This document shows, piece by piece, positions 6,009 to 45,400 of a DNA stretch of 64,000 bases. The translations under genes were made by a program, and so were the position numbers. The DNA comes from Siphonodentalium dalli (lineage: Eukaryota; Mollusca; Scaphopoda; Gadilida; Siphonodentaliidae): assembly GCA_032622095.1 (NCBI GenBank), contig CP136066.1, positions 42,235,835 through 42,299,834 on the forward strand. The letters run 5' to 3'. A model generated the notes under the pieces. It had not been told where the DNA came from and ran no database searches. It worked only from the letters and a program-made list of their open reading frames with translations. The first letter of the stretch is position 1, and every line of letters begins with the position of its first letter.

Positions 6009-6009
6009 A

Positions 6010-13375: not shown

Positions 13376-13470
13376 TTCCAGTATGGCGAATTAGGGTTAG
13401 GGTTAGGGCTACTCTACTCGATCCCAGGTTTAGGGTTAGGACTACTCTACTCGATCCCAGGTTTAGGGTT
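13376..13470. repeat. Short TTAGGG islands in a 44-bp repeat
   Basis: Three islands of 2-3 TTAGGG units joined by ctactctactcgatcccagg. Too short to be a telomere; they lie inside the transposon. Confidence 0.8.
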
Positions 13471-13673
13471 AGGGTTACGTACTGTCACAGACTTAGCCAG
13501 GGAGGTGACAGGAGTCTCTACGGCCCCCAACTTCAGTATTACGACTCCTTACGGCCACCAAAATTTACCAAGATTTGAACCAATGAACTCACCCAAACAT
13601 TGTTTTTAATGATAATTCACATGTTGGCTTCATTATGTCAGTGATATTTAAGTCACTGTCTATAAACAGCACC

Positions 13674-15127: not shown

Positions 15128-15472
15128 CTAGTCTTCATCGCTGCTGCTGCTATAAACATCTCCGTCTCGGACGGCTTTATCACTGTCCGCGTCACTCTCA
15201 TACGGATCATCCCTATCGAGGTCCTCATCATTGTTTGTCCTATCACCAATATCTTCATTCCGAATATCCTCCTTCCAGTCAACGTCATTCTCGTAGTCTG
15301 GTTTATTAACATTATCTTTCTCATTGAAATTGTCTTTTTCATTTTCGTCATCTTCTGTTGTGTCCTGTTTGATTTTCCATTTTTTAGCCATGGCCAGAAG
15401 CTTGAGATTTGGTTGGGATGACTCCTCGTCAGGGAATATATAATCGTAGTACTCTTCCCATCCAGAATCAAT
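15128..15472 (-). CDS. CRNKL1: CRNKL1 last coding exon W15 (residues 616-729, stop)
   Basis: Starts [17 protein letters not shown], then [14 protein letters not shown], then an acidic, Ser-rich tail ending SSSSDED and TAG. Acceptor TATTTTCAG. The acidic tail is longer than I recall for the short human form. No clear AATAAA was seen downstream before the foldback element at 14834-15087. Confidence 0.95.
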   Translation of the reverse strand: MDSGWEEYYDYIFPDEESSQPNLKLLAMAKKWKIKQDTTEDDENEKDNFNEKDNVNKPDYENDVDWKEDIRNEDIGDRTNNDEDLDRDDPYESDADSDKAVRDGDVYSSSSDED

Positions 15473-18400: not shown

Positions 18401-21400
18401 TCGACACGGACAGGTACAGAAATGCCTTAAGTAATCGACTACATAACCACAGCAGAATTATGGGTAACTTTTCAGGATTTAGTCGGAAATATGGCTTGTT
18501 GCCATTCATTGGAAAGCTCTCCCCGAGAGCTTTCCGATGAATGGCAACACGCCATATTTCCTACTAAATCCTGAAAAGTTACCGATAATTCTGCTGTGGT
18601 TATGGAGTCGATAACTTCCGAGTCACGATCAGGTAACTTTGTTACACGTACCCCATCCTCATTCTGTATCTTCCTTCTCTTCTTCACTTTTTGTGGCAGG
18701 AGTTGAGTAACCTTAGCTTGTGTTTCACTGTTTCCTTCTTCAGTCTGAAAGACAGATGATATGCTTGAAAACAAGAGACAATGAACTAATTGAAATATGT
18801 TTCAGAAACGCATAGCAGTTTCAAAGCAAGACACAAGAAAATTTTTGCAAACATTTGGAGTTCATGCGAAGTTTGCTGAATAAAATCATAGTAAAATCCT
18901 TTGATCGTATTAAATGTATTAGGTGTTCAAAGTTTTTATTCACTAATTTAGCCATTAGTAACACAAGTTTAACCCTTTCGAACTAAATAGTCATTAATGA
19001 GTAGTTCACTCAGGTTCACTTAGGAAATTGTTGATCTTATTTTCTGAACATTTGCCTCATATAAATAGGACTCCTTCTGCACTTTTATTATCTGTCGTCT
19101 GCATATTTTTCATAAACATCCCTCCAAATGAATAATAGACCATTCCAATTAATACTTTTATAAGTGAATGGGAGAATGCATTCAGTATAGAAAGAAATAG
19201 ATTATCTTTGCCTGTCATTTCTGAATGAGGTCCCCAGAGGGTGAATTTAGTGATGCTATCACGCATAGCAGCTAGCATAACTAAATTCACCCTCTGGGGA
19301 CCTCATTCTGCTTAGGCCTCTTCTCTGCAAAGTTTCTTTATTATCAAATAGATTCTATTTCTTTTTTAGTTTAGTTTCTCTATAATTGGCAGATGACACA
19401 TTCCATAATCGAGGTTCCCAATGGGTGTACATCACAATATTCACCAATTGGGAACTTAAATCTGAGCCTACATCTCCCATAGCGATGAGGCCATGCAGAA
19501 TGTGGTCCCCAGAGGGTTAATTTGGTGATGCTAGCCCATTGTGCGGGATAGCATCACTAAATTCACCCTCTGGGGACCTCATTCTGCAAATCACAGGCAC
19601 ACCAAACTCAGGCTTGGTAATATCCTGTTATTTCTGTGACCTCCGTCATTACATTAGTGTCAAATTTGTTTCTATTTACACTTATACATGCATTCGAGCT
19701 ATGGAACTTGAATGTAGCATGTTGGTTGGTTGAAATCGCGTCATGTGACATTGACCATGAGCTCCAACTTACTTCCATATTATATTAATGCAACTTGCTG
19801 TCAGAATATTAGTGCGAATGGTCACTAAATGCTCTTAATCTGCTGGCAAAGCTGAATGTAAATATAAGGAATGATATTGATTTTATTGTATTCCGTAGAC
19901 TCTCCACCACTCCCTTTAGTGCTCACCTCTGACAGTTGCCACGCCTCTCAGAACATAAGCTGCTATCTAATGAACTCTCCTCACCCACCCCAATGCATTT
20001 TAGTGCTCACCTCAAACAGTTACCATGCCTCTCACAACATAATCTGGTATCTAATGCACTCTCTTTACCCCCCCCCCAATTCACTTTAGTGCTCACCTCA
20101 AACAGTTGCCACTCTAACAACATAAGCTGGTATCTAATGCACTCTCTTTACCCCCCCCCCCCCCAATTCACTTTAGTGCTCACCTCAAACAGTTGCCACG
20201 CCTCTCACAACATAAGCCGCTATCTAATGGACTCTTGTCTACCACCCCCACCCCCACCACAATCCACTTTAGTGCTCACCTCAAACTGTTGCCACTCTAA
20301 CAACATAAGCCACTATCTAATGGACTCTCGTCTACCACCCCCACCTTAATCCACTTTACTGCTCACCTCAAACTGCTGCCACGCCTCTAACAACATTAGC
20401 CGCTCCTCCTTCATATTTGTATTCTTCAGCGAACGGTGCGATTCCCTGTATACGCCCCGAGCTTTATCTAACGAACTGTCCGATTCTAGCAGTCTCTCAA
20501 ACTGTGCAAAACTTATCCACACCTATAATTATATAGAAATATTTAATATCTTATCCACACCTATAATTATATACAAATATTTACATGAAACTTAGCTGCA
20601 CCTATAAATTATATACAAATATTTACATGAATCTTATTTGCACCTATAAATTATATACAAATATTTACATGAAACTTATCCGCACCTATAATTATATAGA
20701 AATATTTAATGGAACTTATCCACACCTATAATTATATACAAATATTTACATGAATCTTATCTGCATCTCTAAATTATATACAAATATTTACATGAAACTT
20801 AGCTGCACCTATAAATTATATACAAATATTTACATGAAACTTATCTGCACCTATACATTATATACAAATATTTACATGAATCTTATCCGCACCTATAATT
20901 ATATAGAAATATTTAATGAAACTTATCCACACCTATAATTATACACAAATATTTACATGAATCTTACCTGCACCTATAAATTATATACAAATATTTGCAT
21001 GAAACTTAGCTGCACCTATAAATTGTATACAAATATTTACATGAAACTTATCTGCACCTATAATGATATAGAAATATTTAATGAAACTTATCCACACCTA
21101 TAATTATATACAAATATTTACATGAATCTTATCTGCACCTATAAATTATATACAAATATTTACATGAAACTTATCTGCACCTATAATGATATAGAAATAT
21201 TTAATGAAACTTATCCACACCTATAATTGTATACAAATATTTACATGAATCTTATCTGCACCTATAAATTATATACAAATATTTACATGAAATGAAACTT
21301 ATCCGCACCTATAATTATATAAAAATATTTACATGAATCTTATCTGCACCTATAAATTATATACAAATATTTACATGAAACTTATCTGCACCTATAATGA

Positions 21401-24400
21401 TATAGAAATATTTAATGAAACTTATCCACACCTATAATTGTATACAAATATTTACATGAATCTTATCTGCACCTATAAATTATATACAAATATATACATG
21501 AAATGAAACTTATCCGCACCTATAATTATATAGAAATATTTACATGAATCTTATCTGCACCTATAAATTATATACAAATATTTACATGAAACTTATCTGC
21601 ACCTATAATGATATAGAAATATTTAATGAAACTTATCCACACCTATAATTATATACAAATATTTACATGAATCTTATCTGCACCTATAAATTATATACAA
21701 ATATTTACATGAAACTTATCCACACCTATAAATTATATAGAAATATATACATGAAATGAAACTTATCCGCACCTATAATTATATAGAAATATTTAATGAA
21801 ACTTATCCACACCTATAATTATATACAAATATTTACATGAATCTTATCTGCACCTATAAATTATATACAAATATTTACATGAAACTTATCCACACCTGTA
21901 ATTATATACAAATATTTACACGAAACTTATCCACACCTGTCAATATTTACAATCACATGCACCCAGTGTGAAACTTGAATCCAAGGTGTTGGTTGGTTCA
22001 GTCTTCAAAATATGGTGCTGGATATTTACAGAATGAGGTCCCCAGAGGGTGAATTTATTGACGCTACCAGCACAGAGGGCCAGCATTACTAAATTCACCC
22101 TCTGGGGACCTCATTCTGCTTTGGTCTCATCTTCTCTGGAAAGTATTTTTATTATCAAATAAACCAGTTTTTTAGTTTCTTTTTCTTTTTTTGTTTAGTT
22201 TCCCTACATCCCCAAATTGGCAGATGACATGATGCATAATCGAGGTACCCAATGGGTACACATGCGGGATAGTGTCACTAAATTCACCCCCCCCCCGGGA
22301 CCTCATTCTGTAAATGACAGACACACTATATGCAGGCTTGGTGAAAATATAAGGAATGTATGTTGATTTTGTTGAGTTCCATGGATGCCAGTTGGTCTGA
22401 CATACAGTAATACCCTAAGTAATCGACTCCTTATCCACAGCAGAATTATGGGTAACTTTTCAGGATTTAATCGGAAATATGGCTTGTTGCCATTCATCGG
22501 AAAGCTCTCGGGGACAGCTTTCTGATGAATGGCAACAAGCCATATTTCGACTAAATCCTGAAAAGTTACCCATAATTCTGCTGTGGTTAAGGAGTCGATT
22601 ACTTAGGGCATTACTGTATATATACATGTGCGGCACCAACTTGCATAATTGCATCCATACTACATGGAAAGCAACACAATCAAGATCTATTTCTTAAATG
22701 TTACATGCAGTTGTATGATTGATTTTTTTTTATTGTTAGGCGACACCAATTTTTAAGTCTGGTATACAAACATGTGGGGAGAAAAAAAGTAGATGCAGGA
22801 GGGAAAAAAATAAAAATAAAAAAAATTGTCCCCCTAATTTATATTGAGTAAATCGAGGAATTTTACAAAATTTTTACAAAAATTGTTTTTGAATGAAATT
22901 CTGAACCAAACAAGACATTTCTTGTCATGAAATACATGAAACTATGGATCAGTAAATGATTATAAGCAGAACCGGATGCGACAGCACATGAAAATCAGTA
23001 TGTCTGTAAATAAAAATTGGGAGAAAAAAGTTTTATTTTTTTTCATGAAATGGAAAAAAAGTTGTAGGAGGTGTTCGTAAACCAGACTTATAAATTAGTG
23101 TCGCCTTAGCCAATTGGTGGAAAAGCATGCAAAAGACCTGTATTATAAGTTCATTAAAACTAGATATGTGTTTTCTAAGGCAATTATATGTGGAAATTTG
23201 GAAGAGGGAGCAAGCTTGCTGTGCAGGATAGCATCACTAAATCCATCCTATGGGGACCTCATTCTGCAAATGACAGACACACTATATCAAGGTCTGAGAG
23301 AGTAAACAACAAGCCTGAGTATAGTGCTCCTTAGAGGTTTGGGAGGGAGTGAAATTTATAAGCAATCTACAGAATCTTTCCCACAACCCTGAGAATATGG
23401 TGCCTGACATTTTCAGGATTGGATGAGTCACCAAATTCATCCTAAGTGGACCTCATCTGCTATGGGAGACCTAGATAGAGATTTCAGTTCCCATATGGTG
23501 GAGATGGTGATGTGCACCAATTGGGCACCTCGATTATGCATTGTGTCGTCTGCCAATTTGGGGATATAGAGAAAACTAAATAAAAAAGATAAAGAAACTT
23601 TCTAAAGAAACTAAAAACATTTCCAGAAGATGAGGCCTAAACAGAATGAGGTCCCCAGAAGGTGAATTTAGTGATGCTAGCCTGCTGAGTGGGGTAGCAT
23701 TACAAAATTAACCTTCTGGGGACCTCATTCTGCAAATGTCAGGAATCATATTTTTAGGCCTGCCCCAATGCATTCAGCCATTACATCTTCAAACGAACCC
23801 TATCTAGATTGCTGATAAATTGATTGAGTTTTGAGCCTTTGAAAATTATAGATCAATTTGCGAATAATTTTTGTTCACAAAGCCCTCTTTGGGTGATGAG
23901 GGAGGTGTCTTTTATTATTTATTGTCTGAGACGGCGTAAACTATAAAAGCCAGAATGAAGCTTCATTTTACCTTTACATGCTGTGTTCTCTGTAGGAGTC
24001 GTCGGTATAATTCTCTCGTATTCTCAAATTCTTCCTGGTCTCCTTCGAAGTCGATATAAGATTTCCACAGCACCTCTGGCATGTCTAACTTTGGCTGATT
24101 TATAGCCAACTCATATAAGGATCTCGCTCGCTGGTCGTCTCCCAGAATGTTTTCAAGCTCAGCAAACTGAAAATTTTATGGCCTATTAATCATTTATTAA
24201 CCCTTAAAAAGCTTCCTGAAATTTTGCGAAAACCCTGTGCTCCCATGGCATAGGGAGCCTCGCATATATAACAGAATACATTGGCCTAATAATATTTACC
24301 TTGACCTTGTAAGCCAGTGCATTCTCTTATATATGTGAGGCTCCCTATTGGAGTGTAAGGGAATACACTGGCTTACAACGTCAAGGTAAATATTCATTGT

Positions 24401-27400
24401 TAAGCCAATGTATTCTCTTATATATGAGAAACTCCCTATGGGGAAACTCGCATTATTGGTATTGGCAAAATTTCAGGAAGTTCCAGTCATGGAAGGGTTA
24501 ACCCTTTACCCAACAAACCGGCCAAATAAAGCTTCAACAGCCTAAAATATCTTCGGTCTGTCTCAATAAAACCATACAAATATGGATATCATTGGAACCG
24601 GCTCATTGACCACATTTTGATGGTTATAGTTATGCCCTGTGCCAATGCATTCTCTTATATATGCGAGTCGACCATAGGTCGCCTCGCATATATAAGAGAA
24701 TGCATTGGCCTAAAAAAAATCTTTTTTAAACACTTTTTACCATTTTTTCTTACATTCTTTAACAATTTTATAATTTTTAATGTGTTAAGCCAATGCATTC
24801 TCTTATATATGCGAGGCGACCTATGGTCGACTCGCATATATAAGAGAATGCATTGGCACAGGGCCGTTCTATTGGGTAAAGGGTTAAGGGCTCATTTTGC
24901 CATAAATAGTTGGTGCTTCACACCATGTATGGCCTCATTCTGCTTAGGCCCTCTACTTCTATGGTAGACCTAGGATCAGATTGAAGTTCCCGAGTTGAAG
25001 TTGGTGATGTTCACCCATTGGGCACCTCGATTATGCATTTTATCTTCTGCAAATTAGGGGGATATAGAAACTTCCCAGAAGGGAAAATGTAAATAAAAAA
25101 AAATGTTAATTTGATACTATAGATACTTCCCAGAAGATGAGGCCTAAGCAGAATGAGGTCTCCAGAGGGTGTATTTAGTGATGCTATCCCGCTATGCGGG
25201 ATAGCGTCACTAAATTCACCATCTGGTGACCTCATTCTGCAAATGACAGACAGGCTGATAGCTTTAGGTTTCTCTCCATTTCTACCTTTCCCAAGCCTGT
25301 GTGTGCGACCTATTTCCAAAGCCTGTGTGTGCGACCATTTTCCCAAGCCTGTGTGTGCGACCTTTTTCCCTTGGTTAAATTTGAACTTTAAGCTCATCAT
25401 TAACAATTTCACATGCTATTTTATTTGTGTTTTCTTCAGAATTTCCAGGTACCCCATGAATCAACAATTATTTTCCCACAAAGCTCTCTTGATTGGCGAC
25501 ATCACGCTCAAAGACAACGATAAATTCATTCTCCTTGATGCAGCCTTAAAATTTATTAAATCGTCCGGCAGATTCTCGTGATTAATCAATAAACTAAATT
25601 TATTATATATGTATCCTTGTGTATATCTGTATATCTATGTATACATAAGCGTATATAGAATTCAGTCATCATAAAAACCATTAAGTAAAACGTTCATGTA
25701 CAAACTCCCCTGTCGGCTATATAGTTAGCCACCCCTAACAAATGTACCCCCATTAACGAACCACATGACTTATATATTTAACTCGCACCCCAGACTTACC
25801 CCCACCACCACCACCACACTATCACTCACCAGTAATAATTAATAGTATAGTTATTCAAATTCAATTGTTATTGTATACATGCACCCGTCATGCCAAACCT
25901 ATTCTGTTTAATATACCATTTATATTTGTTGTCATACTTATTCTGTATTGTGGGGAGCGGAGGACCATCCAAGTTTTAAGAACTTGTCCTCCAATCCCCT
26001 AGTATCTGTATATGAATATACTATTAAAATATGTTTAACCCTTTCAGTGCCAGGGGCGGATCTCATCGGCCTCAATTTACGGTCTGTAAAATCGGCCCTA
26101 AATTTTATTTTAAATTTTGTTTTTTTTGTTTAGATTTTTTTGGGTTGAATTTTTTTTGGGTATTCTTAAACATGCTATAGCGAGCTAAAAACAAACTGGA
26201 TAAAACCTTAGGGGTATGTTATAACTCAAAACTATCACCAAGTATTCATAGTAATAATTTTGATGCCCATGAAAAACGTAAGATTCCCTGGCACTAAACC
26301 TACAAAATAAGTCTGTTAAAGAATATAAGAAAAAAATATTAAAATTGTAAAAAATTATAAAAAATAATAACAAATGATGAAAAATTGTTAGGCCAATGCA
26401 TTCTCTTATATATGCGAGGAGACCTATGGTCGACTCGCATATATAAGAGAATGCATTGGCACAGGGTATATGGGTTGATACAAAAATCGGACCTGGCACT
26501 GAAAGGGTTAAACCAAAAATCAACAGTTGTGCTGTATTATTCAAGGTTATCAAGTTCATCCTTCAGTTTTAGATTATCTAATCGAAGCCCAAACACTTCA
26601 TGTTCGAAGTCCTTAACCCTTTCATGACGGGAGCTGAGCTGGTTCAGCATTAAAAATCCTGTGTCAGTGCATTCTCTTATATATGCGAGTCTCGCATATA
26701 GTGAATGCTATGGCTTACAAGGTCAAGGTAAATATTGTTAGGCCAATATATTCTCTTATATATGCAAGGCTCCCTATGGGAGATTTGATATATATAAGAG
26801 AATGCACTGGCACAGGATCATTAATGCTGCACCAGCACCTGGGGACCCCATTCTGCTAATGCCCAGCACCATATTTTGAGTCCTGTTAACTATTTTAACC
26901 AGCAATACGATGATGAACTGGGGTAAACATAAGAAATTAGACAAACCTTCATCCATGTTGTACAGTTCTCTGGACCATACTCGAGGAATTTTCCGTATAA
27001 AATCCGACATCTGTCAAACTCACGGAGTTGAAGCTCCAGGTCAATGTAGTTTCTAAACAGTTTATTCTTTGGACATTTTCCGATAGATGCTCCCTGAAAT
27101 ATGAAGCATAGTAAACTGATATAAAATTTAAATAAAAGGTCAGCAGACTACAGTGTCCCCCGACAACGTGACAAGTCGATGCCGCTTTGTTAAAGAAATT
27201 TTAAAAAATGTCGAAAAGGGTTAATAACTCCGTCAAAATATAATTTTTCCGTCATCTATATACATGAAGCACATCTTCAGTATATGGGCAACAATATTCT
27301 GAAGTTTCAAATCTCTGGGATGAAATCTGCAGGAGGAGATGATTACACCATGAAGGTACTCAAAAGTGTGACGAACTGACGGATGAACGGACGGCTAGAC

Positions 27401-30400
27401 AAACGGACGGACAGAGCCCGTTTCTATAGTCCCCCGAAAACAAATTTTTCGGGGGACAATAAATGGCTGCTATGCAACACGTAGGAATGACAATACAAAG
27501 ATTTTTAAATTTGAAAGGATAAATATATACAAGAGAATAATTATCAATATTGCATATATATTCAGTGAAATATTCAAGTGCAAAGAGATATCTTACATCT
27601 ATACAAATCGTAATACCCAAGTATTTTGTATGTTACAAGCTCCCTCTGTGAATCATTTTCTATGTTATAATAATAACAAAATAATATTGCTTATATAGCG
27701 CTTATCTCCAGTACCATGAGCCGACCCCAAGCGCTTCACATTATTACCCCAGCTGTTGAGTAATGCCGAGTCTTGTGCCTGCTGCCATTTTACAGGCGCT
27801 TCACTAGAGAGGCTCAAGCCTTGAAATAGGGTGTCTGTCATTTGCAGAATGAGGTCCCCAGAGGGTGAATTTAGTGATGCTACCCCGCATAGCGGGCTAG
27901 CATCACCAAATTCACCCTCTGGGGACCTCATTCTGCTTACACCTCAGCAGAATGAGGTCCCCAGAGGGTGAATTTGTTGATGCTAGCCCGCTAGCATCAC
28001 TAAATTCACCCTCTGGGGACCTCATTCTGCAAATGACAGGCACCCTATTTCAAGGCTTGGTCAGAGGCTTAAGCTTGCTGAACAAACCAGGTCGCTATTT
28101 CTCGTCTATATACGACAAAGCAAGCACAGTACAAGTTACTACAGGTGTGAGATTTGAACGTCAAACATCTCTCAGACTAATAGTGATATATTATCAAGTC
28201 TTGAAATCAGAATGAGGTCCCAGAGGGTGAATTTAGTGAATCTACCCCACACAGTGGGCTAGCATCACTAAATTCACCATCTGGGACCTCATTCTGTGTA
28301 GGCCTCATCTTCTGGGAAGTATCTATAGTCTAAAATTAGCATTGTTTTTAGTGTTCAGTTTCTATATCCCCTAATTTTGCAGAAGATAAAATGTATAATC
28401 GAGGTGACTGTTGGGTGAACATCACCAACATCAACTGGGAAACTTCAATCTGATCCTAGGTCTCCCATAGCAGTTGAGATCTAAGCAGAATGAGGTCCCC
28501 AGAGGGTGAATTTGGTGAGGCTAGTCCACTGTGCGGGATAGCATCACTAAATTTACCCTCTGGGGACCTCATTCTGCTTAGGCCTCATCTACTGGGAGGT
28601 ATCTATAGTCTCAAATTAGCATTGTTTTCAGTGTTCAGTTTCTATATCCCCTAATTTTGCAGAAGATAAAATGTATAATCGCGGTGACTAATGGGTCAAC
28701 ATCACCAACATCAACTGGGAAACTTCAATCTGATCCTAGGTCTCCCATAGCAGTTGAGATCTAAGCAGAATGAGGTCCCCAGAGGGTGAATTTGGTGAGG
28801 CTAGTCCACCGTGCGGGATAGCATCACTAAATTCACCCTCTGGGGACCTCATTCTGCTTAGGCCTCATCTACTGGGAGGTATCTATAGTCTCAAATTAGC
28901 ATTGTTTTCAGTGTTCAGTTTCTATATCCCCTAATTTTGCAGAAGATAAAATGCATAATCGCGGTGACTAATGGGTCAACATCACCAACTTCAACTGGGG
29001 AACTTTAATTTGATCCTTGGTCTCCCATAGCAGTTGAGATCTAAGCAGAATGAGGTCCCCAGAGGGTGAATTTGGTAAGGCTAGTCTGCCGTGTGGGATA
29101 GCATCACTAAATTCACCCTCTGGGGACCTCATTCTGCAAATGACAGACACACTATTTCAAGGTTTGTATATGATGTATTCAGGGTTGCAGGACTATTTTT
29201 TTTATGAAATCAAATACTGTGAATGGCATTAATTTTGTCAGTATCAATTTTTGTGGTTTAGCAACAATAGACTTTTTCTTGGGTTCATAAATTTGTGGGT
29301 TATCTGAAAGACATTATCTTGTTTGAAATAATATAAATTTTCCATTTATTTTGTATAGTTTCAATGACTTAGAAGGGGAGCAATAATTATTGAATTGGCA
29401 AAATGACACTGTTTGGTATTTATAAGTCATATTGGTTTTTTTTTTTTAGTAGAATAAAACCAATTAGATATGATTTTGTATATTGTGGTTTATTTATTGG
29501 GGTTTCGTATCGCTTCCAGAAGTGAGGGCTATATCATGACGTTGCCAGTTTTATCGGTGATGGGAAACTCTGTGCACTAAGGTAAATCTAGCAGTGATTT
29601 TATTGGCTGGAAAAATGACCCATTGTGGCCGGCGATACCACAGACCATCACCGAGTAACTGGCAACTCCCCCAGATAGCGATATGTGATACAGTCAGCGA
29701 TGACTCCACTGGGAATTGAACCCATATCTCTAGCGCTGGAGAGTGAGTCGGTCTGGAGCAGAGCCCCTTACCGACTGAGCCACCGGGGTCCCTATATTAA
29801 TGTTGTAACTAAAGGTATAAGCAAGCCTTGAAATAGTGTGCCTGTCATTTGCAGAATGAGGTCCCCAGAGGGTGAATTTAGTGATGCTACCCCGCATAGT
29901 GGGCTAGCATCACCAAATTCACCCTCTGGGGAATGAGGTTCCCAGAGGGTGAATTTGGTGATGCTAGCCTGATATGCGGGGGAGCATCACTAAATTCACC
30001 CTATGGGAACCTCATTCTGCAAATGACAGACAAACTATTTCAAGGCTTGGGTATAAGTATAAAAATCCTGAACATATCCTTAAGTTTCTATTAATAAATA
30101 CCTACCAGGATTTTTCGTGCGGCCAGTATATTTTTCTGTCTGACCTCAAACTGTGCAAACAGTATCCACAGCTTGGCGAATGTGAACTTTTTATGTGGAA
30201 GAATATCGAGGCAAGCTTTATAAATGTCTCTTGTTCGTTCTATATTCCTGGCTTCAAGCTCCTCAAACACAGCATAGTTTATCCACAAATAAATATATCG
30301 CCTCCAATGTCGCTTCTCCTGAAACATGAATAAATAACTTTAACACATCCATGCGCCTTTTTCTGAAATAAAAATAACTATTTATAAATACCAATGTCCA

Positions 30401-33400
30401 ATGTGTTTTTGTGTTGAAATATAAATAAATATAATGTGCCTCAAATGTCGCCATCAGAGCTGTTAAGTTCCACGGATTGTCCGTGAGACTCACGGATTTC
30501 CACGGCAATTCCGCAAACACGGATAACCCCCAATTTCTCACGGATTCGTCAAAACACCACATTGAAAATCCCAAAACGAAGTTTTTTTTATTTTTTAAAT
30601 TAGTGCATTTGCGGGAATTCCCCAAATGACAGTGACTTCCTTATTTCCGGTACCGTAAATACCCACACATTAACATTCACAGAATGTATCGTCGGTAACT
30701 TTTGATTGAAGACTCAATTTGTGGTGAACTGTGACTGATATTAATTGATTTTCACACTCTGGTGAAGCCACACGTATGGAGGGTGTTGTTTTAGTAAACA
30801 ATACGTATAATCACAAGTGTGCAAAGTTCTGTATTGTTAGGCCTCATTGATGAACATTTCTTAGTAACGGATTAGTGGCATGCATTGCAAACGAAATAAA
30901 ACAATACGTTTAATCACAAGTGTGCAGCTGTATTGTGAGGCCTCATTGATGAACATAAGTAATGGATACTTTATGATTTAAGTTCACTGATAGTGGTATG
31001 CATTGAGAACGGAATGTGTCTTTTATTTTGCGGGTAAAACTTTTAAGACGGGTCATTTTGTACTTTCGGTTTCACGCATACATGTCCGGTTGTAACCTGT
31101 GTAACTCGGATTCGTTTTGACTAACTTTAAACAAAGTTTCTGCTTCTTAAAATTTGTTAATAAATGGTGGAATGTGTGCATTTCTTTTGTGGGTTAAACC
31201 GTAAGACGAGTCCATTTTGTCGTTTATTACGATGTTGTACTTTCGGTTTCGCGCATATCCGGCTGTTTCCGGTGGAATTCTGAATATTTTTACGAAGTGT
31301 GATCTGCTTCTTTCTTTTTAATAAATGGTGGTATCTCCCACACAGAGCAGCTCTATTACAATTACCAACAGGACATTCATTGCGATTTTATTTAGGTCTA
31401 TATATTTATAAAATAGAAACTCATAAAAATTATGCAATCTTCATCATAAAAATTATTTTTGGAACATGAACATATTTGGGCATACCTCACGCAAAAATCT
31501 CACGGATTGACATTTTCAAAACTTAACAGGTCTGGTCGCCATCCTGAATTTTAAGGAAAAGTTTTCAGAACTAGAGGTGTATGTATACGGACCTGAGAGA
31601 TGGGGTATGTATAATGACCTGAGAGATGGGGTATGTATACTGACATGAGAGAGGGGAGTATGTATACTGACCCGATAGAGGGGTGTATGTAAACTGACCT
31701 GAGAGATGGGGTATGTATACTGACCTGAGAGAGGGGTGTATGTATACTGACCCGATAGAGGGGTGTATGTATACGGACCTGAGAGAGGGGTGTATGTATA
31801 CTGACCCGATAGAGGGGTGTATGTATACGGACCTGAGAGATGGGGTATGTATACTGACCTGAGAGAGGGGTGTATGTATACTGACCCGATAGAGGGGTGT
31901 ATGTATACGGACCTGAGAGATGGTGTATGTATACGGACCTGAGAGATGGGGTATGTATACGGACCTGAGAGATGGGGTATGTATACTGACCTGAGAGAGG
32001 GGTGTATGTATACTGACCCGATAGAGGGGTGTATGTATACTGACCCGATAGAGGGGTGTATGTATACTGACATGAGAGAGGGGTGTATGTATACTGACCC
32101 GATAGAGGGGTGTATGTATACTGACCCGATAGAGGGGTGTATGTATACTGACCTGAGAGATGGGTATGTATACGGACCTGATAGATGGGGTATGTATACT
32201 GACCTGAGAGATGGGTATGTATACGGACCTGAGAGATGGGGTATGTATACGGACCTGAGAGATGGGTGTATGTAAACTGACATGAGAGAGGGGAGTATGT
32301 ATACTGACATGAGAGATGGGTATGTATACTGACATGAGAGAGGGGAGTATGTATACTGACATGAGAGAGGGGTGTATGTATACTGACCTGAGAGATGGGT
32401 GTATGTATACTGACCTGAGAGATGGGGTATGTATACTGACCTGAGAGATGGGTATGTATACGGACCTGAGAGATGGGGTATGTATACTGACCTGAGAGAT
32501 GGGTGTATGTATACTGACCCGATAGAGGGGTGTATGTATACTGACCTGAGAGATGGGTATGTATACTGACCCGATAGAGGGGTGTATGTATACGGACCTG
32601 AGAGATGGGGTATGTAAACTGACCTGAGAGATGGGGTATGTATACGGACCTGAGAGAGGGGTGTATGTATACTGACTGAGAGATGGGGTATGTATACTGA
32701 CTGAGAGATGGTGTATGTAAACGGACCTGAGAGATGGGGTATGTATACTGACCTGAGAGATGGGGTATGTATACGGACCTGAGAGAGGGGTGTATGTATA
32801 CTGACATGAGAGATGGGGTATGTATACTGACATGAGAGATGGTGTATGTATACTGACATGAGAGAGGGGAGTATGTATACGGACCTGAGAGATGGGGTAT
32901 GTATACGGACCTGAGAGATGGGGTATGTATACGGACCTGAGAGATGGGGTATGTATACGGACCTGAGAGATGGGGTATGTATACGGACCTGAGAGATGGG
33001 GTATGTATACGGACCTGAGAGATGGGGTATGTATACGGACCTGAGAGAGGGGTGTATGTATACTGACATGAGAGATGGGGTATGTATACTGACCTGAGAG
33101 ATGGGGTATGTATACGGACCTGAGAGAGGGGTGTATGTATACGGACCTGAGAGATGGGTATGTATACTGACCCGATAGAGGGGTGTATGTATACGGACCT
33201 GAGAGATGGGTATGTATACTGACCTGAGAGATGGGGTATGTATACTGACCTGATAGAGGGGAGTATGTATACTGACATGAGAGATGGGGTATGTATACGG
33301 ACCTGAGAGATGGGGTATGTATACGGACCTGAGAGATGGGGTATGTATACGGACCTGAGAGATGGGGTATGTATACGGACCTGAGAGATGGGGTATGTAT

Positions 33401-36400
33401 ACGGACCTGAGAGATGGGGTATGTATACGGACCTGAGAGAGGGGTGTATGTATACTGACATGAGAGATGGGGTATGTATACTGACCTGAGAGATGGGGTA
33501 TGTATACGGACCTGAGAGAGGGGTGTATGTATACGGACCTGAGAGATGGGTATGTATACTGACCCGATAGAGGGGTGTATGTATACGGACCTGAGAGATG
33601 GGTATGTATACTGACCTGAGAGATGGGGTATGTATACTGACCTGAGAGAGGGGTGTATGTATACTGACATGAGAGATGGGGTATGTATACTGACCTGAGA
33701 GATGGGGTATGTATACTGACCTGAGAGATGGGTATGTATACGGACCTGAGAGATGGGGTATGTATACGGACCTGAGAGAGGGGTGTATGTATACTGACAT
33801 GAGAGATGGGGTATGTATACTGACATGAGAGAGGGGTGTATGTATACTGACCCGATAGAGGGGTGTATGTATACTGACCTGAGAGATGGGTATGTATACT
33901 GACCCGATAGAGGGGTGTATGTATACGGACCTGAGAGATGGGGTATGTATACGGACCTGAGAGATGGGTATGTATACTGACCCGATAGAGGGGGGTATGT
34001 ATACGGACCTGAGAGATGGGGTATGTATACGGACCTGAGAGAGGGGTGTATGTATACTGACTGAGAGATGGGGTATGTATACTGACTGAGAGATGGTGTA
34101 TGTAAACGGACCTGAGAGATGGGGTATGTATACTGACCTGAGAGATGGGGTATGTATACGGACCTGAGAGATGGGGTATGTATACTGACCCGATAGAGGG
34201 GGGTATGTATACGGACCTGAGAGATGGGGTATGTATACGGACCTGAGAGATGGGGTATGTATACGGACCTGAGAGATGGGGTATGTATACTGACATGAGA
34301 GAGGGGTGTATGTATACTGACATGAGAGAGGGGTGTATGTATACTGACATGAGAGAGGGGAGTATGTATACTGACATGAGAGAGGGGAGTATGTATACTG
34401 ACATGAGAGAGGGGTGTATGTATACTGACCCGATAGAGGGGTGTATGTATACTGACCTGAGAGATGGGGTATGTATACGGACCTGAGAGAGGGGAGTATG
34501 TATACTGACATGAGAGAGGGGAGTATGTATACTGACATGAGAGAGGGGTGTATGTATACTGACATGAGAGAGGGGAGTATGTATACTGACATGAGAGAGG
34601 GGAGTATGTATACGGACCTGAGAGAGGGGAGTATGTATACTGACATGAGAGAGGGGAGTATGTATACTGACATGAGAGAGGGGTGTATGTATACTGACAT
34701 GAGAGAGGGGTGTATGTATACTGACATGAGAGAGGGGAGTATGTATACTGACATGAGAGAGGGGTGTATGTATACTGACCTGAGAGATGGGGTATGTATA
34801 CTGACCCGATAGAGGGGTGTATGTATACTGACCCGATAGAGGGGGTATGTAAACTGACATGAGAGAGGGGTGTATGTATACTGACCTGAGAGAGGGGTGT
34901 ATGTATACTGATCTGAGAGAGGGGTGTATGTATACTGACCTGAGAGATGGGGTATGTAAACGGACCCGATAGAGGGGTGTATGTAAACTGACCTGTGATG
35001 GAGGAACATTGGCTATGGCTCGTTCGTACGTCTCCTCTACCTGAGCGATATCACCATCTGATTCCAGGAGTCTGAGGTAATCAAACCATGAATCATAATT
35101 GGTCGGATTTTCTTTGATCTCCTAAAAATGAGTATTAAAAAGACATGTTATATTCAGGCAATATTTAACCCTTTACCCAACAAACCGGCCAAAACCGGCC
35201 AAATAAAGCTTCAACAGCCTAAAATATCTTCGGTCTATCTCAATAGAACCATACAAATATGGATATCATTGGAATCGGCTCCTTGACCACATTGTGATGG
35301 TTACAGTTATGCCCTGTGCCAATGCATTCTCTTATATATGCGAGTCGACCAAAGGTCGCCTCGCATATATAAGAGAATGCATTGGCCTAAAAAAAATCTT
35401 TTTTTAACACTTTTTACCATTTTTTCTTACATTCTTTAACAATTTTATAATTTTTAATGTGTTAAGCCAATGCATTCTCTTATATATGCGAGGCGACCTA
35501 TGGTCGACTCGCATATATAAGAGAATGCATTGGCACAGGGCCGTTCTGTTGGGTCAAGGGTTAATAAATGAAAGTGTCAACGACACTGTAGCTCAACTTA
35601 GGTAGGGGAATAATTTAATGGTTGACAATAAATGGAGGAATAGGAAAGGTGTTAATTGAAATGTCTAAGTAAGACAAGATGAACATGTCAATATCAACAT
35701 TCATGACAAGTTCCATGATGATCGGATCAGGGATGTGGTGAGTATGGTGTACCAAAGGATTTAGTGATGCAAAGAGTAAATTCTAAAATGGCCACCGGCA
35801 GCCATGTTTTTTGCCGAATGACCCCAAAATAACTCGTTCCCATCTACATGTCATTGTTAACATCCATCGCTGGAGGTGCCGTTTATGTCATTGACGGAAT
35901 TGCAGCAACAACTCCCTTATGACAAATTTCATTATGATCAGACGAATAGTACGACCTGTAGCCCGCGCCAATGGATTTAATTTTGAAATCCAAGATGGCC
36001 ACCAGTGGCCATGTTTTTTTGGCCGAATGAACCCAAAATGACTCGTTCCCATCTACATGTCAATGTCAACAGCCATGACAAATCTCATAATGATCTAACC
36101 AAAGATACAACCTGTAGCCTGTGCCAAAGGATTTAGTCATGCAAAGAGTAAAATCCAAGATGGCTGCTGGCGGCCATGTTTTTTGGCCGAATGACCCCAA
36201 AAGGTCATTGCTAACATCCATGACAAATTTCATGATGATCATACGAATAGTACGACCTGTAGCCCGCGCCAATAGATTTAATTTTGAAATCCAAGATAGC
36301 CGCCAGCGGCCATGTTTTTTGCCCGAATGACCCCAAAAGGACTCGTTCCCATCTACATGTCATTGTTAACATCCATGACAAATTTCATGAAGATCCGACC

Positions 36401-39400
36401 AAAGCTACGACCTGTAACCCGCGCCAAAGGATTTAGTCATGCAAAGAGTAAAATCCAATATGGCTGCTGGCGGCAATGTTTTTTGGCCGAACGACCCCAA
36501 AATGACTCGTTCCCATCTACATGTCAATATTAACATCCATGTCAAATTTCATGATGATCATACGAATAGTACGACCTGTAGCCCGCGCCAATGGATTTAA
36601 TTTTGAAATCCAAATTGTCCACCAGCAGCCATGTTTTTTAGCCGAATGAACCCAAAATGACTCGTTCCCATCTACATGACAATGTCAACAGCCATGACAA
36701 ATCTCATAATGATCTAACCAAAGATACGACCTGTAGCCCGCGCCAAAGGATTTAGTCATGCAAAGAGTAAAATCCAAGATGGCTGCTGGCCGCCATGTTT
36801 TTTGGCCGAATGACCCCAAAATGACTCGTTCCCATCTACATGTCAATATTAACATCCATGACAAATTTCATGATGATCAGACGAATAGTACGACCTGTAG
36901 CCTGCACCAAAGGATTTAATTTTGAAATCCAAGATGGCCGCCAGCGGCCATGTTTTTTGGCCGAATGACCACAAAATGACTCGTTCCCATCTACATGTCA
37001 ATGTCAACAGCCATGACAAATCTCATGAAGATCTGACCAAAGCTACGACCTGTAGCCCGCGTCAAAGGATTTAGTCATGCAAAGAGTAAAATCCAAGATG
37101 GCTGCTGGCGGCCATGTTTTTTGTCCGAACGACCCCAAAATGACTCGTTCCCATCTACATGTCAATATTAACATTCATGACAAATTTCATAATGATCAGA
37201 CGAACAGTACGACCTGTAGCCCACGCCAATGGATTTAATTTTTAAATCCAAGATGGCCACCAGGGGCAATGTTTTTTGGCCGAATGACCTCAAAATGACT
37301 CGTTCCCATCTACATGTCAATGTCAACATTCATGACAAATTTCCTAAAGATCAGACCAAAGGTACGACCTGTAGCCCACGCCAAAGGAAATTGTTGACGG
37401 ACACACATACACACGGACGACGGACGCCAACCCACGGCAATAGCTCAAACTTACAAAGTAAGTTGAGCTAATAAATGCAATATCATTGAAGAGAATTATT
37501 TTTCCGTGAAATGCTTCTCTAATGTCAGCACTAGCCATCAAATAAAATTACCTTCATTTGTCATTCCCTGTTGGTTTTATTTAGTGGGAGATACACGGCT
37601 AGCTTCACTAAATTTATCTTCTGGGGACCTCATTCTGGTTAGGCTTACTCAGCCTTCCTGGGAAATATCTACAGTCTCAAATTAACCCTTTACCCGACAG
37701 AGCAGCCCTGTGCCAATGCATTCTCTTATATATGCGAGTCGACCATAGGTCGCCTCGCATATATAAGAGAATGCATTGGCTTAACACATTAAAAATTATA
37801 AAATTGTTAAAGAATGTAAGAAAAAATGGTAAAAAGTGTTACCATATATAAGAGAATGTGTCGCATATATAAGAGAATGCATTGGCACAGGGCATAACTG
37901 TAACTATCACAATGTGGTCAAGAAGCCGGTTCCAATGATATTCATATTTGTATGGTTCTATTGAGACAGACCGAAGATATTTTAGGCTGTTGCAGCTTTA
38001 TTTGGCCGGTTTGTTGGTTAAAGGGTTAACATTGTTTTCAAATACTTTTTCCTTTCTGTTCAATTTCAATATCTCCTTTTTGCAGAAGATAACATGCATA
38101 ATCGAGGTGACTAATGGGTGAGCATAACCAATTTCAACTGGGAAACTTCAATCTGATCCTAGGTCTCCCATAGCAGTTGAGGCCTAAGCAGATTGATGTA
38201 CCAGAAGGTGAATTTGGTGATGCTAGCCCATTGTGCGGAATAGTGTCACTAAATTCACCCTCAGGAAACCTCATTCTGCAAATTACAGACACCCAATTTC
38301 AATGCTTGCTGGTTCTCAGTTCATTCCTTAATATGAGGACGCTTCCATTGCCCTATTTCAAGGGCGTATGTGGGAAGAGAAATTTTGGTTAGGGGATAGG
38401 AACACTAAAAGGCTGTCTGGCGGAAACCATGAATTATTAGTACACCAGTCTTACCTCCTCATACTGGAATCTTACCATGAATTATTAGTACACCAGCCTT
38501 ACCTCCTCATATTGGAATCTTACCATGAATTATTAGTATTGGAATCTTACCATGAATTACCTCCTCATACTGGAATCTTACCATGAATTATTAGTACACC
38601 AGCCTTACCTCCTCATACTGGAATCTTCTCTTGCTGACTATCACGTCTTCAATCGCTGCCCGACTTCCAAACTTCTTCTCGTGGACGGTGTAAGCCTTAT
38701 ACACTTCTACACATCTATCTTTTGGCAGATGATCCAAGGCATATTTATAGATGACTCTGGCTCTCTCGTGCTACAAGAACAATATCACAGTGAGCTTAGT
38801 TTTACAAATTTCTGTAACTTTTCTTCTGTATATCAGGACAAAATATTGTCATTTTGTCATCTTAACCCTTCCATGACTGGAGCTGCCTAATATTTGCGAA
38901 AAACCCTGTGCCAATGCATTTTTTATATATGCGAGTCTGCCATTGGGAGCCTCAAGTATATAAGATAATACATTGGCCTAACAATATTTACCTTGACCTT
39001 GTAAGCCAGTATATTCTCTTATATATAAGAGAATGCACTGGCACAGGATCTTTAATGCTCCACCACCACAGCTCCCGTTATGAACCTCATTCAATCATAT
39101 TAATTTTGTTCATGATTTTATTATATTTACACTCACACATGCATTCGTACTGTGGAAGATGAATGCAGGACGTTGGTTGGTCAATATTATGTCACATGAC
39201 GTCACATGCTGACCCCAACTTGCATCCATTTTTGTGTAGATGCAACTTGCACCGAGCCACGATAATAACGTTGGAAATGGGCACTTAAAACTCATTTAAT
39301 CTGCCAGTTGACTCGGTTGAGTGTAAATATAAGTAATGGATGTTGATTTTGTTGCGTTCCATAGAGTATGGATGCAAGTTGGTCTGACATTTTAATGTGT

Positions 39401-42400
39401 GGAACGCTTTCGCGTTCCACACAAAATGTCAGACCAACTTGCATCCATACTCTAGGAAACGCAAGCAAATCAACAACCATTTCTTGAGTAGAATTAAAGA
39501 TGAAATCAGGGTCCCAGGCCTCCAGTTACAACATCAACATAAAAGATATCTAATAACTGGATCACTGAATAAAAAAAAAAAACCTTTTTATTGAAGGTTG
39601 TTCATCTTTTTAAGTGATCTTTGCACCTATATCTTGTTTATGGCGATCAGTAGGGCATGCTGGCATTTGTTTTGACTAATCAACTGGCGGATTTCAGCGT
39701 GGACTTGTTTAATAATCAAGTCCAACGACATCGATTAGTCGACTAATCGTTTCAACACTACATTGCATGTTCGACATTTAATTAAGGTTCACAATGGGTG
39801 CACATCACAATATTCACCATCTGGGAACTTATATCTAGATCTTCCATAGCAGATGAAGCCATGCAGAATGAGGTACCCAGGGGGGGGGGGGATTTAATAA
39901 TGCTATCCCATTGTGCGGGGTAGCATCACTAAATTTACCCTCTGCGGACAACTGGAAACTTACCTCCTTCTGGGCTTCTTCAAATTTCGAAAAGGCAATC
40001 AGCAATTTTTCATCAACATTATCATCTCCAAAGTACTCAACAGCCCGTTCATAAATTCTTCGTGAACTGTTAATGTAATGGTTCTTTTCTTCAAACTTTG
40101 CGTACTTTATCCAGTTTTTAACCACGGGATGAACAATAACAAGTAAGAAGAGTCAAGGAAAATAAAATCAACAAACTGAACACGATGTCTCTAAATTCTA
40201 TAACTTAACCCTTTACCCAACAAAACGGCCAAAACCGGCCAAATAAAGCTTCAACAGCCTAAAATATCCTCGGTCTGTCTCAATAGAACCATACAAATAT
40301 GGATATCATTGGAACCGGCTCCTTGATCACATTGTGATAGTTACAGTTATGCCCTGTGCCAATGCATTCTCTTATATATGCGAGTCGACCATAGGTCGCC
40401 TCGCATATATAAGAGAATGCATTGGCCAAAAAAAATCTTTTTTTTAACACTTTTTACCATTTTTTCTTACATTCTTTAACAATTTTATAATTTTTAATGT
40501 GTTAAGCCAATGCATTCTCTTATATATGCAAGGCGACCTATGGTCGACTCGCATATATAAGAGAATGCATTGGCACAGGGCCCTTCTGTTGGGTAAAGGG
40601 TTAAAACATACAATAACAAAATAACAATTTGAGCTTACAAAGAATATCTGAAGTACCCCTAATTTCAATGCCAAAATTCTAAAGCGAAAAAGGGATAGAT
40701 AGATAGATAATTTATTGGCAAAAGTGCATTCATTATACAAGAATACAGGATACAAAAATAATCATAAATAGGATTGAATCGTCAAGTGCATAAGATCAGT
40801 TACTTGCCCAGTTGAGGGTCAGCAAGATATGGATATATGACAATCCACATCATGCTGACTCCCAAATAGGTTGCACTCAGGGATGTAACTAATGTAAAAA
40901 TAATTGGAAGGAACCCATATTAGAATTTGGCCTGTTTTTTTAGCTCGGAGATACACATACTAACTTTGGTTCAGATCAAATATTCCAATTTGACCTGTAA
41001 TTTGTGCTAGTAAACCCACATACCAAGTTTCATTCCATTCTGTTCAGACTAACTAAAGTTATCATCCAGAAACAACTAGAGGTGTGACTGTCCCAATGGG
41101 ACTATGGATACCCCCCTGTTTTTAAAATACTAAGATGTTTCACATGTCAGTCAACATTTAGTTAAAATAATAAAATAACAGTTCCCATTGCAGGTGTACA
41201 ACCATAACCCTAATCTTAAACCTATTGACCGAAAAATGTAGGAATAAAAGATTGGACAAAATTATGCATGTTGCAAAAAAAAAATCTAAGTCGAAAAAGG
41301 GGGATAACTCCACCAAAAAATATTGGACAGACGTCATAATCACAGGTGCACAAGTTCCCATGGTACTAAATATCTGTGCCACGTTTTAAAAAAATTGACT
41401 GAAAAATGTAGGAATAAAAGCTCTCACAAAATTATACATATTGCAAAAATTTTATAAGTCGAAAAAGGGGGGATAACTTCACCAAAAAAAGTCCGACAGA
41501 CGTCATAATCGCAGGTGCACAGGTTCCCATGGTGGTTGATGTCTGTGCCAAGTTTCACGGAAATTGATCAAAAAACGACTGAGAAAAACTCCGGACAAAT
41601 TTGTGTCCACGGACGGACGACGGACAAGCTGACTCCAGTATACCCCCCCTAACTTCGTTGCGGGGGGTATAAAAAAGCGAATAGATGGACAACTTATAGT
41701 CAATATTGGCAATGCATAGCATTATGAAAATTCCAACATGGTATCTTTGCATACATGAATAATTTAACAACGCATCACATATTCATGATGGATTGAAACG
41801 TGAACTAAGATAGTGATCCTTCGAAAAACACAAGTAAACAAACCAGTCCTAGTCAGTAGTTTTTCACATATAATAAATATAACAAAGTTTCAAACGAAAA
41901 ACAATTTTATAAATATTTAAGATCATTCTTTTATGATATCTCATATATATTTTGAAGACCTCTGTCTGTATGTTTGTCTGTCTGTATGTTTGTCTGTATG
42001 TTTGTCATTAATACAAATCTACGATTCTCGACCGATCGGGACGAAACTTGGTGCGTGTGTGTAGTTTGACCAGGCGGTGGACGTTGTCATATTGGCGAGC
42101 CCGTGCGGCGCCCGCTTCGCACATGCGCAGACGAGATCTCGGAAACGGGTGGAGCTATCGACTTGAAATTTGGTATGTGAATGTATCTTGCCCCGGATAC
42201 AAATTTTATCGGGTCGCCGAGCCCGTGCGACGCCAGCTTCGCGCATGCGCAGACGAGATCTCGGAAACGGGTGGAGCTATCGACTTGAAATTTGGTATGT
42301 GAATGTAACTTGACCCGGATACAAATTTTATCGGGTCGCCAAGCCCGTGCGACGCCAGCTTCGCGCATGCGCAGATCAGATCTCGGAAACGGGTAGAGCT

Positions 42401-45400
42401 ATCGACTTGAAATTTGGTTTTTGAATAGCCCGGACAACGTCGGGCTCATCGGCTAGTCATATATAAAAGGATATATCGTTCATATATATGTCTGGCCCTG
42501 TCAAGTTCCTTGTATCGGAGTTCGAAGTTGATGTAAGAATGCCACGCTTGTTCCTCGGGTTGCCACTCCATCCATCTCTCAAATGCCTGTCTTGCTCCTG
42601 TCAATTAAATTAATTTTCATTAACGAGAGGCCGATCATGAACGGCAGATGTTTAACCCATACCTTGGCGATAGCGATTAGCTATAACTGATAATTTGTCA
42701 AAGATATGATCACAGGAATCCAACTTGAAATAAAAAGCTCAAATAATGTGTCTTAAGAAAGGGTTAAATTATTTGGGGTGGGGAAGGAGTAGTTTTAAAT
42801 CTCTTAACTCTGTCCCTATTCACCCAAGGACCTCTCACTGTGAGATCCAACGGTTTAGTGATTTCGGAGGATATGTTTAGGAGTTTAAGTTAACTCATTG
42901 GAAGCAAAAGTGATAAATCAATATCTCTGCAACTTTGACATGCCAGATATTCAAAATTTATTCATTTCTAAAGAGAAATTATAATTTGTTGACAAGCCAG
43001 ACAGCTTAGAACATACATGTAGGGGATTCCATCTCATATTTAAATGGTACTTTAATTACCCCCCCCCCCCTTCCCCCATTCTCCCCAGTTGTTATTTGTT
43101 TATCAAACATGGACAGATAAGATCAGATCTGACCTGTGTATTAAATAAGATTAAGTGCTTCATAACAGGGGTGTATGGTTTTCAAAAATATATGTAGTTT
43201 ATACAATACAAAAGTATTATCTACATAATGTTATACAGACATAATATGATGAGGATGCTGGCCCCTATGACCCCTAAATCGAAACAGATTACCATAGTTA
43301 ATATAAAAGAAAGTAAGTAGCCCTCAATTAAATGGTTTCACACATTACAATGTTTTACAAGTAGCTTGGAAACTAAAAGCCACAACCTTCGATGTTAATC
43401 TTCTAAGCGCTCTGTGGCCCCTAAAATTCAATCAACAATGACAATATGAACAAATGGGAAAATACGGTTCCTGGAAATATTAACAACATCTACCATATTG
43501 ATTTTCAAAACAAGGCATCACTTAATTACAATAGTCATGTAGATTTATCTGCCTGTTACCCATTGCATAGATAAATCATATTGGCTATCAGCCATTATGA
43601 GTCCATGTACATTATAGCATGTTAATTTTTTTTTTATTATTATAAAAGTTAAATTTTTTTTTATAATATTTGCTTTGTTAAACTGAGCAAGGAGTTAAAT
43701 ATATAAAAACAAATCTAACTTTTTGTGTGAAAAAGGTTCATAACTCCTTTAAAATAAATCAGATCAAACCCATATTCGAACTCGGTCTGTATTTTAGGCT
43801 GAGAAACCTACATTTTGTTCCAATAAAATAAAGATGTTAGAGTTATGGCAGCATGCATGAATTCTAAGTCGAAAAAAGGCCATAACTCTGTAACAAAAAC
43901 TCGGATCAAACCCAAATTCGAACTTGATCTGTATTTTGGGCTGAGAAACAATATTTTCCAAAAAAGTTAAATATATATCTCCTAGAAGTATCTTGCCCAC
44001 TGAACTATATGGTATATCCCCAAAATATTAACAAGGAAGGGTTACCAAACCCGTACGAAAATTCTATGGTATATTTTATCCTGTTTCGTGAACTGTAACC
44101 TCTGATGACGTCATCTCCAAATGTCCCTATATAAGCTCTGTAGCCAGACCGCTTTTCACTTTTTCCCCTTGTTAACGGAGGACACGAAGATAAGTCTTGA
44201 TAATATATATATGTTTTTTTTGTTATACAAAAAACATTATCTCCGTTGATTATTATTTGTTGTGTGCAAACTTTACTAACGCGTTGCTATACGTAATTTT
44301 GTCGTCCAATCCATGTTTTTAAATAGACAAGTCCACATGAAACGAAACTTGTCGAAGGCATCTTTTATTTTCTTTATATTATTTGTCACGGAAAGACAGA
44401 CGAATAATAGATGCACATTTGGATATGACTAAGGACGCTCAGAATCTTTATAGCAAGAATAGATTGCACGCATGAGAGATTTTCTATAGTCGAAGCAAAT
44501 TAGCCACGTGGGCGGTTGCATAGTAACAGTATCACGAAATTCGGTGACTTAATTTCGACCGTCTGACGGCTTGGTAATACTGTAGCTACAATTTGGCCAA
44601 TCGGCAAACATGATTCCGTCTGCAATATACAGGCTTATAAATATATAATGATAATGACAGCACTATGACAGTGTCCTACCTGCAACATTCCCAAGCATCT
44701 CCTCCATGTATGTGTATTTATACCAGAATTGATTGGCTCTCGGAAGTATAGTAACAGCTCTGTCCCAAATGTTCCTGGCATGGTTAACTTGTCGAGCTCT
44801 GTCATCATTAAAACGAAAAATTATTAAGAAATGTGAAAAACATTATGCTAGAATACGGCATGCATCTGAGTCAAGAAGCTGTATAAAATAAGATGTGGAC
44901 AGTGTAGTTATATATATAGACAGAACACAAAGTGGATATTCATCAATAGTTTTTTATCAAAATGAGTTGTGGATGGCGCAAGGATATATTTAACGAAAGC
45001 GGAGCTTTGGTGAAATATTTTGTCTATGCGCCATCTGCAACAAGTTCGATAAAAGTTTCTGGATTATGATTCTAGTTGTGTTCTGTATTTATTCCACACC
45101 ATGTGTCTGATAAGTTTAATCAATGACTGTAGTACTATAACTACCTTTAATGTGATTTAAGTCTGACAGCATATAGAGCGAAGTGGATGACTGATGTTAT
45201 GTATGTCATTGCTCTTACCATGTAGCAACAATGTCAACCTGAGGTAGTTCCGACTTTTATTCAATAAGAGATTACGTTGAATACATGTGCCTCATGTCAA
45301 CGGGTGTGGAATAAAACAGAATATGCCATCTGCAATGGGTTCAATATAAGATTCAAATTTTTTTAAAGCATCGTGTTCTGGTTTATTCTACACCCTTGTA

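Follow-up and report, generated by a model that had tools for sequence, protein, structure and literature searches.

A minisatellite of 129 units, probably splice-site-spanning and grown from the exon 9 donor, in the CRNKL1 gene of the scaphopod Siphonodentalium dalli

The window analysed here, a 64,000-nucleotide (nt) stretch of the genome of the scaphopod Siphonodentalium dalli, carries the gene for crooked neck-like protein 1 (CRNKL1), and intron 9 of this gene is largely filled by a tandem array that starts at the exon 9 donor. On the strength of its translation the gene hosting the arrays described below is CRNKL1, a spliceosome protein: a 423-residue translation matched chain 8c6j_S, 'Crooked neck-like protein 1' (E 6e-227), and identity to molluscan CRNKL1 proteins reached 82%. 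In a midpoint-rooted tree of 31 proteins the window CRNKL1, entered without exon 14, fell inside a supported mollusc group (21 rows), without resolution to class. The 15 exons found by tblastn and splice-site reading do not include the most N-terminal coding exon. A search of the 2.23-Gb genome returned no second CRNKL1 copy, and a genome-wide search for a retrocopy bearing the exon 9-10 junction gave none (of its 15 matches, 14 lay in CRNKL1 itself and one, 26% identical, on C1). The conserved protein runs straight from exon 9 into exon 10. Coordinates are collected in Table 1. Intron 6 (40143-42474) had the ends GAT/ATATCCTTTT and TTCCTTGACTCTTCTTAC/TTG, where the slash marks the boundary as it does throughout, and joining there gave ERFVIVHP, as in protein P0001. 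These ends are presumably minor-class AT-AC intron motifs.

Table 1. Features of the CRNKL1 locus in window coordinates.
Feature	Position	Strand	Remarks
CRNKL1 gene	15128..58189	minus	15 exons, open frame (tblastn and splice-site reading); numbered from the first exon located
CRNKL1 exon 8	38609..38770	minus	
Exon 8 donor array	38426..38627	minus	48-bp units: 19 nt exon tail + donor GTAAGG; 4 GAG/GTAA donors, true one counted
CRNKL1 exon 9 (W9)	34993..35121	minus	129 nt; the array's first GT is its donor
CRNKL1 intron 9	30319..34992	minus	4674 nt; array is 73% of the intron
Exon 9 donor array	31571..34992	minus	129 joints, spacing 25-27 bp; commonest unit TACATACCCCATCTCTCAG/GTCCGTA
CRNKL1 exon 10 (W10)	30106..30318	minus	
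CRNKL1 exon 13	20367..20522	minus	arrays on both flanks
Exon 13 acceptor array	20509..21952	minus	35 units of ~42 bp: 34 decoys + true site
Exon 13 donor array	19907..20404	minus	~87-bp units, exon tail + GTGAGC; 6 donors, true one counted

The end of exon 9 and its donor read CCTCCATCACAG/GTCAGTTTACATAC on the minus strand. A preliminary description of this DNA, made from the letters alone, had reported about 130 tandem copies beginning at the exact donor of exon 9, and both statements held: Tandem Repeats Finder (TRF) returned a single array at 31579-34995 (period 26/27, 129.7 copies), and the donor G lies at 34992, the same point at which the array starts. The array is real and not a chance pattern. 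Cutting it at the string TACATAC gave 130 anchors and hence 129 joints, spaced by 27 (62 joints), 26 (51) or 25 nt (16), with the copy number being that of the one assembly. An exact 17-mer occurred five times in the whole 2.2-Gb genome, each time within this array. The joints were of few types: AG/GTCCGT (46), AT/GTCAGT (30), AG/GTCAGT (27), GG/GTCAGT (19), AGTCAGT with one base lost (4) and three singletons. AG/GT was thus unbroken in 74 of the 129 joints and broken in 55, with the AG itself broken in 50. The statement that every unit repeats the donor was therefore too strong, as CAG/GTCAGT was found at only 27 of the 129 joints. The string that had been quoted from the joints, CCCTCTCTCAGGTCAGT, occurs five times, and TCTCTCAGGTCAGT 26 times. 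The donor half, GTCAGT, had been called a consensus donor and matches the consensus in part, with C at +3 where a purine is expected. The donor consensus GTRAGT has a purine at that position. When the units were aligned, 16 of 27 columns were invariant, including the anchor columns by construction; the T of the GT was invariant, its G was kept at 99.2%, and conservation fell to 63.6% in the +4 column. Judged by eye, the unit types followed one another in repeated blocks, which suggests duplication of segments within the array and turnover.

Three further CRNKL1 splice sites, at the exon 8 donor, the exon 13 acceptor and the exon 13 donor, lie in arrays whose units hold both exon and intron sequence, as in the boundary-spanning repeats known from amphioxus as mirages; like those repeats, the exon 9 array carries AG/GT in many but not all units (74/129 joints). 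The units at the exon 13 acceptor carry (T)ATAG followed by an exact or near copy of the exon's first 14 nt, and use of any of the 34 upstream decoy acceptors would bring an in-frame stop. Site-crossing copies were recovered by blastn (80 nt around each site, E up to 1e-3) at the exon 8 donor (3), the exon 9 donor (27), the exon 13 acceptor (20) and the exon 13 donor (4), and at none of the other 25 of the 29 CRNKL1 splice sites. Four of the 15 arrays in the gene cross an exon boundary, compared to 0.5 expected with an overlap of up to 40 nt (P = 0.0012) or 1.0 with up to 100 nt (P = 0.017) in a placement test set post hoc, in which 15 hand-merged TRF arrays with a period of at least 20 were placed at random without breaking exons. 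Two further large intronic arrays, without exon contact, lie at 45769-47804 (68 bp x 29.9) and 48900-49633 (55 bp x 13.2).

Two gene families were surveyed elsewhere in the genome: exon 20-mers copied locally were sought in 30 of the 85 matches to the myosin head and in 50 of the 53 to chaperonin, each taken with 1.5 kb on either side. The screen flagged two of the 30 myosin and nine of the 50 chaperonin loci (11/80). Twelve myosin loci, judged by hand to be probable paralogues, were set aside along with 11 loci whose exons shared at least 93% identity. Of the 57 non-redundant loci left, nine were independent boundary-crossing cases (chaperonin 8/43, myosin 1/14). One locus per case was read by eye, with L019 and L077 in place of the retained L017 and L076. 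Eight cases were clear, with a duplicated acceptor or donor together with exon sequence; the ninth, L062, was weak, with little exon sequence. Since boundary duplications occurred in 9 of 57 other loci, CRNKL1, with three of its 15 exons affected, is not unusual beside them. The largest mirage read outside CRNKL1 lies at a chaperonin exon (L065, 1600-2060), where the tail RAFRKATHM is present 11 times, six of them then followed by GGTAA. A 44-bp array of ~13 copies recurs at comparable positions in a number of myosin paralogues (L026, L034-L037) and would be useful for dating array turnover. Long open frames in the myosin and chaperonin listings had hinted at further giant arrays; this idea was put aside when the eight loci examined contained no frame of at least 200 residues.

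The same 57 loci were used to compare rates of local copying in 30-nt windows, a window being counted as copied if at least half its words had a local copy. Copies were found for 4 of the 113 windows at exon edges, for a single one of the 263 inside exons, and for 20 of 788, 31 of 1125 and 161 of 3040 intron windows at distances of 100-300, 300-600 and 600-1400 nt, respectively (2.5-5.3%). Exon edges, taken as the edges of profile matches and not exact exon ends, with small counts and with two loci being long single matches, thus show a rate close to that of introns and so behave like them. Most simply, tandem duplications would arise at a high rate throughout the genome, be removed from exon interiors and be tolerated across boundaries, since the exon-proximal site would still function there. 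The possibility that duplications are directed to splice sites was also considered; it was favoured by the placement test within CRNKL1 and not by this wider control.

The exon 9 array probably represents a mirage in this sense, a minisatellite spanning the splice site that grew from a duplication of the exon 9 donor and was tolerated. It is the largest case seen here of the short boundary-crossing tandem duplications of this genome, which seem to be tolerated. A short tandem duplication would have arisen over the donor, and slippage or unequal exchange would have enlarged it to about 129 units inside intron 9. The exon-proximal, original site presumably stays in use and the copies would leave with the intron; because all extra copies sit on the intron side, such duplications would be nearly neutral and may pile up at a rate close to that of ordinary intron sequence. 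Mis-splicing into an intact AG/GT unit would regenerate a donor and might be correctable, which may help tolerance. The first array unit includes the donor GT together with the intron bases next to it, and the exon 9 tail matched the unit best of 14 exon ends, with a score of 9 when the next among the other 13 reached 3. The view that a donor had been amplified beside its own exon is most likely right.

Several results weigh against a birth at the donor or against simple tolerance. Only three exon nucleotides (CAG) surely belong to the exon 9 unit, no local copy of the donor-spanning 24-mer was found within three mismatches, and among 56 coding 16-mers with CAG at their end, the exon 9 tail being one of them, five fit the unit as well as or better than this tail, so that its resemblance beyond CAG is suggestive. 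The finding that edges and introns are duplicated at nearly equal rates depends on four windows, and the CRNKL1 arrays touch boundaries more than expected, so that there could be some targeting. An unrelated intronic minisatellite might also have ended at the donor by luck, the common CAGGTCAGT being coincidental; in favour of this, the three nucleotides are all that is surely shared and CRNKL1 introns are rich in arrays, with a local copy at 1794 of 6102 sampled gene positions. An array of this size, however, overlaps an exon edge by at most 15 nt in only 1.9% of the allowed placements, and the three other CRNKL1 boundary arrays plainly hold exon sequence; we regard a lucky ending as very unlikely. 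With only CAG surely in common and with 5 of 56 fits as good, it is therefore likely, as judged from these sequences, and not proven that the exon 9 array was born at the donor.

Pairing was scored against the 5' end of U1. Of the 128 GTC[AC]GT sites in the array, the first is the true donor (-8.0 kcal/mol) and the other 127 are decoys. Forty-four decoys paired better (25 at -9.9, 19 at -9.2), two equally well, 44 at -7.9 and 37 more weakly, so that 46 of the 127 were at least as good as the true donor and 90 were within 0.1 kcal/mol of it or better. Among 1723 other GTs in CRNKL1 (outside the listed arrays, with exons and true donors counted) 1.2% reached -7.9. Given that many decoys equal or beat the true donor, U1 pairing alone cannot pick it. 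The suggestion that the units make good U1 targets was borne out by these scores. They also count in favour of a decoy role, in which the units would hold U1 and/or U2AF and slow or regulate the splicing of intron 9, perhaps as a feedback on a spliceosome gene. Mirages also occur in chaperonin and myosin genes, however, at 9 of 57 loci compared to 3 of 15 CRNKL1 exons, and nothing therefore ties them to splicing factors; little credence is given to a decoy function.

The preliminary description had further proposed that the joints act as recursive (ratchet) splice sites, exon 9 being joined to array AG sites that each restore a donor, with intron 9 removed stepwise. Acceptor and donor are indeed juxtaposed in the 74 AG/GT joints (the donor half having C at +3), and splicing into any intact unit would restore CAG/GT. 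The mean pyrimidine share ahead of the joints was 0.73, at the upper end of the range of CRNKL1's 14 AG acceptors (0.41-0.76). Fly ratchet points are alike in having AG/GT with a pyrimidine tract ahead and no exon between; the part of the literature covered here describes them as conserved and situated in very long introns, commonly >40 kb (PMC6110457), and the exon 9 array consists of 129 variable copies in a 4.67-kb intron. Judged within the array only, AG/GT does not appear to be kept by selection, as the two AG columns (84.5% and 73.6%) rank sixth and fourth most variable among the 27. Joints lie ~26 nt apart and therefore only distant units could pair in ratchet splicing, and fly ratchet points demand a downstream cryptic exon, according to a passage of PMC8605326. 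A pyrimidine tract followed by AG/GT arose in 0.6% of single-base shuffles of the consensus unit and in 35% of those shuffles that contained AGGT; given AGGT, the tract before the joints is unremarkable. If descent from the donor holds, AGGT is in the unit because the unit descends from the CAG/GT end of the exon, and the ratchet-like look would follow from this inherited AG/GT and the C-rich tract beside the joint. Similar arrays at one acceptor and two other donors of CRNKL1, and in other genes, need no ratchet logic and undercut it further. Overall a recursive function was not supported and is highly doubtful.

The joints could also have made the array self-correcting, in that exon 9 spliced into an AG/GT unit would restore the same donor, retained units could be spliced out later, and the copies would be neutral at the RNA level. 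If this were true, splice sites could be copied almost without limit, and it would be understandable that the two largest mirages examined, with 129 joints and with 35 units, carry AG/GT in many of their units. Most of the small mirages examined also have AG/GT, and the chaperonin exon at L065 lacks it (ATG/GTAAGC) yet reached 11 copies; self-correction is unlikely.

A last alternative is that the array is coding, since read-through from exon 9 would append ~1150 residues of repeat protein. None of the three minus-strand frames meets a stop within the array (open reading frames 31516-35121, 31551-35012 and 31571-35050), but 39% of shuffled units were also free of stops in every frame. When 8000 candidates were scored against exon 9 plus the first part of the array translation, two proteins matched; neither has a name, both carry Pfam domains of the CRNKL1 type, and 15% of the query was covered. 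Exon 10 moreover directly continues the conserved protein, and a coding extension is extremely improbable.

Other features of the window included a 1184-residue minus-strand frame (2457-6011) that by eye resembled the endonuclease and reverse transcriptase of a non-long-terminal-repeat retrotransposon, with further reverse-transcriptase-like pieces, also by eye, at 60110-60748 and 63093-63608. An inverted-repeat element with GCATATATAAGAGAATGCATTGG recurred by eye in several introns (24600-24900, 35300-35550, 37700-37850 and 40300-40560); its DNA was read at 35320-35540 and the other places were recognised from translations. A 33-bp unit with TTAGGG-like motifs was present 2.6 times at 13393-13478 (TRF).

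Constructed reporters are the usual means of studying how the spliceosome chooses between a true site and neighbours identical to it, and here the genome offers a natural experiment, in which one exon faces 127 donor-like copies, 46 of them pairing with U1 at least as well, and another faces 34 acceptor copies. If normal mRNA is made, the choice of the exon-proximal site must be very robust. That a mollusc has mirages in its CRNKL1, chaperonin and myosin genes suggests that splice-site copies, and possibly new introns, have arisen in this way more widely than has been noticed.

The closest known systems are the amphioxus mirages, which the available portions of PMC3087553 and PMC3902484 describe as tandem repeats spanning donor or acceptor boundaries, many but not all units having AG/GT, in Adh3, the globins BflGb6 and BflGb9, PGBD5 and TnC; reverse transcription PCR suggested normal splicing. 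Haplotypes of BflGb6 with six and three mirage units are mentioned there. Of the arrays described here, three are alike in spanning exon-intron boundaries and the exon 9 array probably so, with AG/GT in many but not all of its units; they differ in being in a mollusc, with four in one gene, cases at 9 of 57 loci elsewhere, and up to 129 units. The human CBS gene has a 31-bp variable number of tandem repeats, given in an excerpt of PMC2630376 as c.1444_1467+7(16_21); by this notation 24 exon and 7 intron nt are repeated 16-21 times together with the donor, so that, like donor arrays of CRNKL1, it spans a donor. Unlike the exon 9 array it is a single human locus with 16-21 units, mostly of exon sequence. 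Intron gain by tandem AGGT duplication (the Rogers model, with cases from fission yeast and potato, and in fission yeast an intron across four 24-bp duplicates) is outlined in part of PMC4974935. Its tandem AGGT copies supply GT and AG, as the copies in CRNKL1 would; the model yields new introns, whereas in CRNKL1 an existing intron has been filled. In human duplicated genes, internal tandem repeats at exon-intron boundaries alter splice patterns, as stated in a section of PMC2812944; the boundary position is common to the CRNKL1 arrays, and the human repeats are in paralogues of segmental duplications, where variable copies change mature transcripts. For molluscs, part of PMC3862624 describes microsatellites in Conus introns, and no report of mollusc mirages was found in searches of the open-licence literature. 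Mirages are thus known from amphioxus, and what is added here is their presence in a mollusc, in several genes, with one of very large size.

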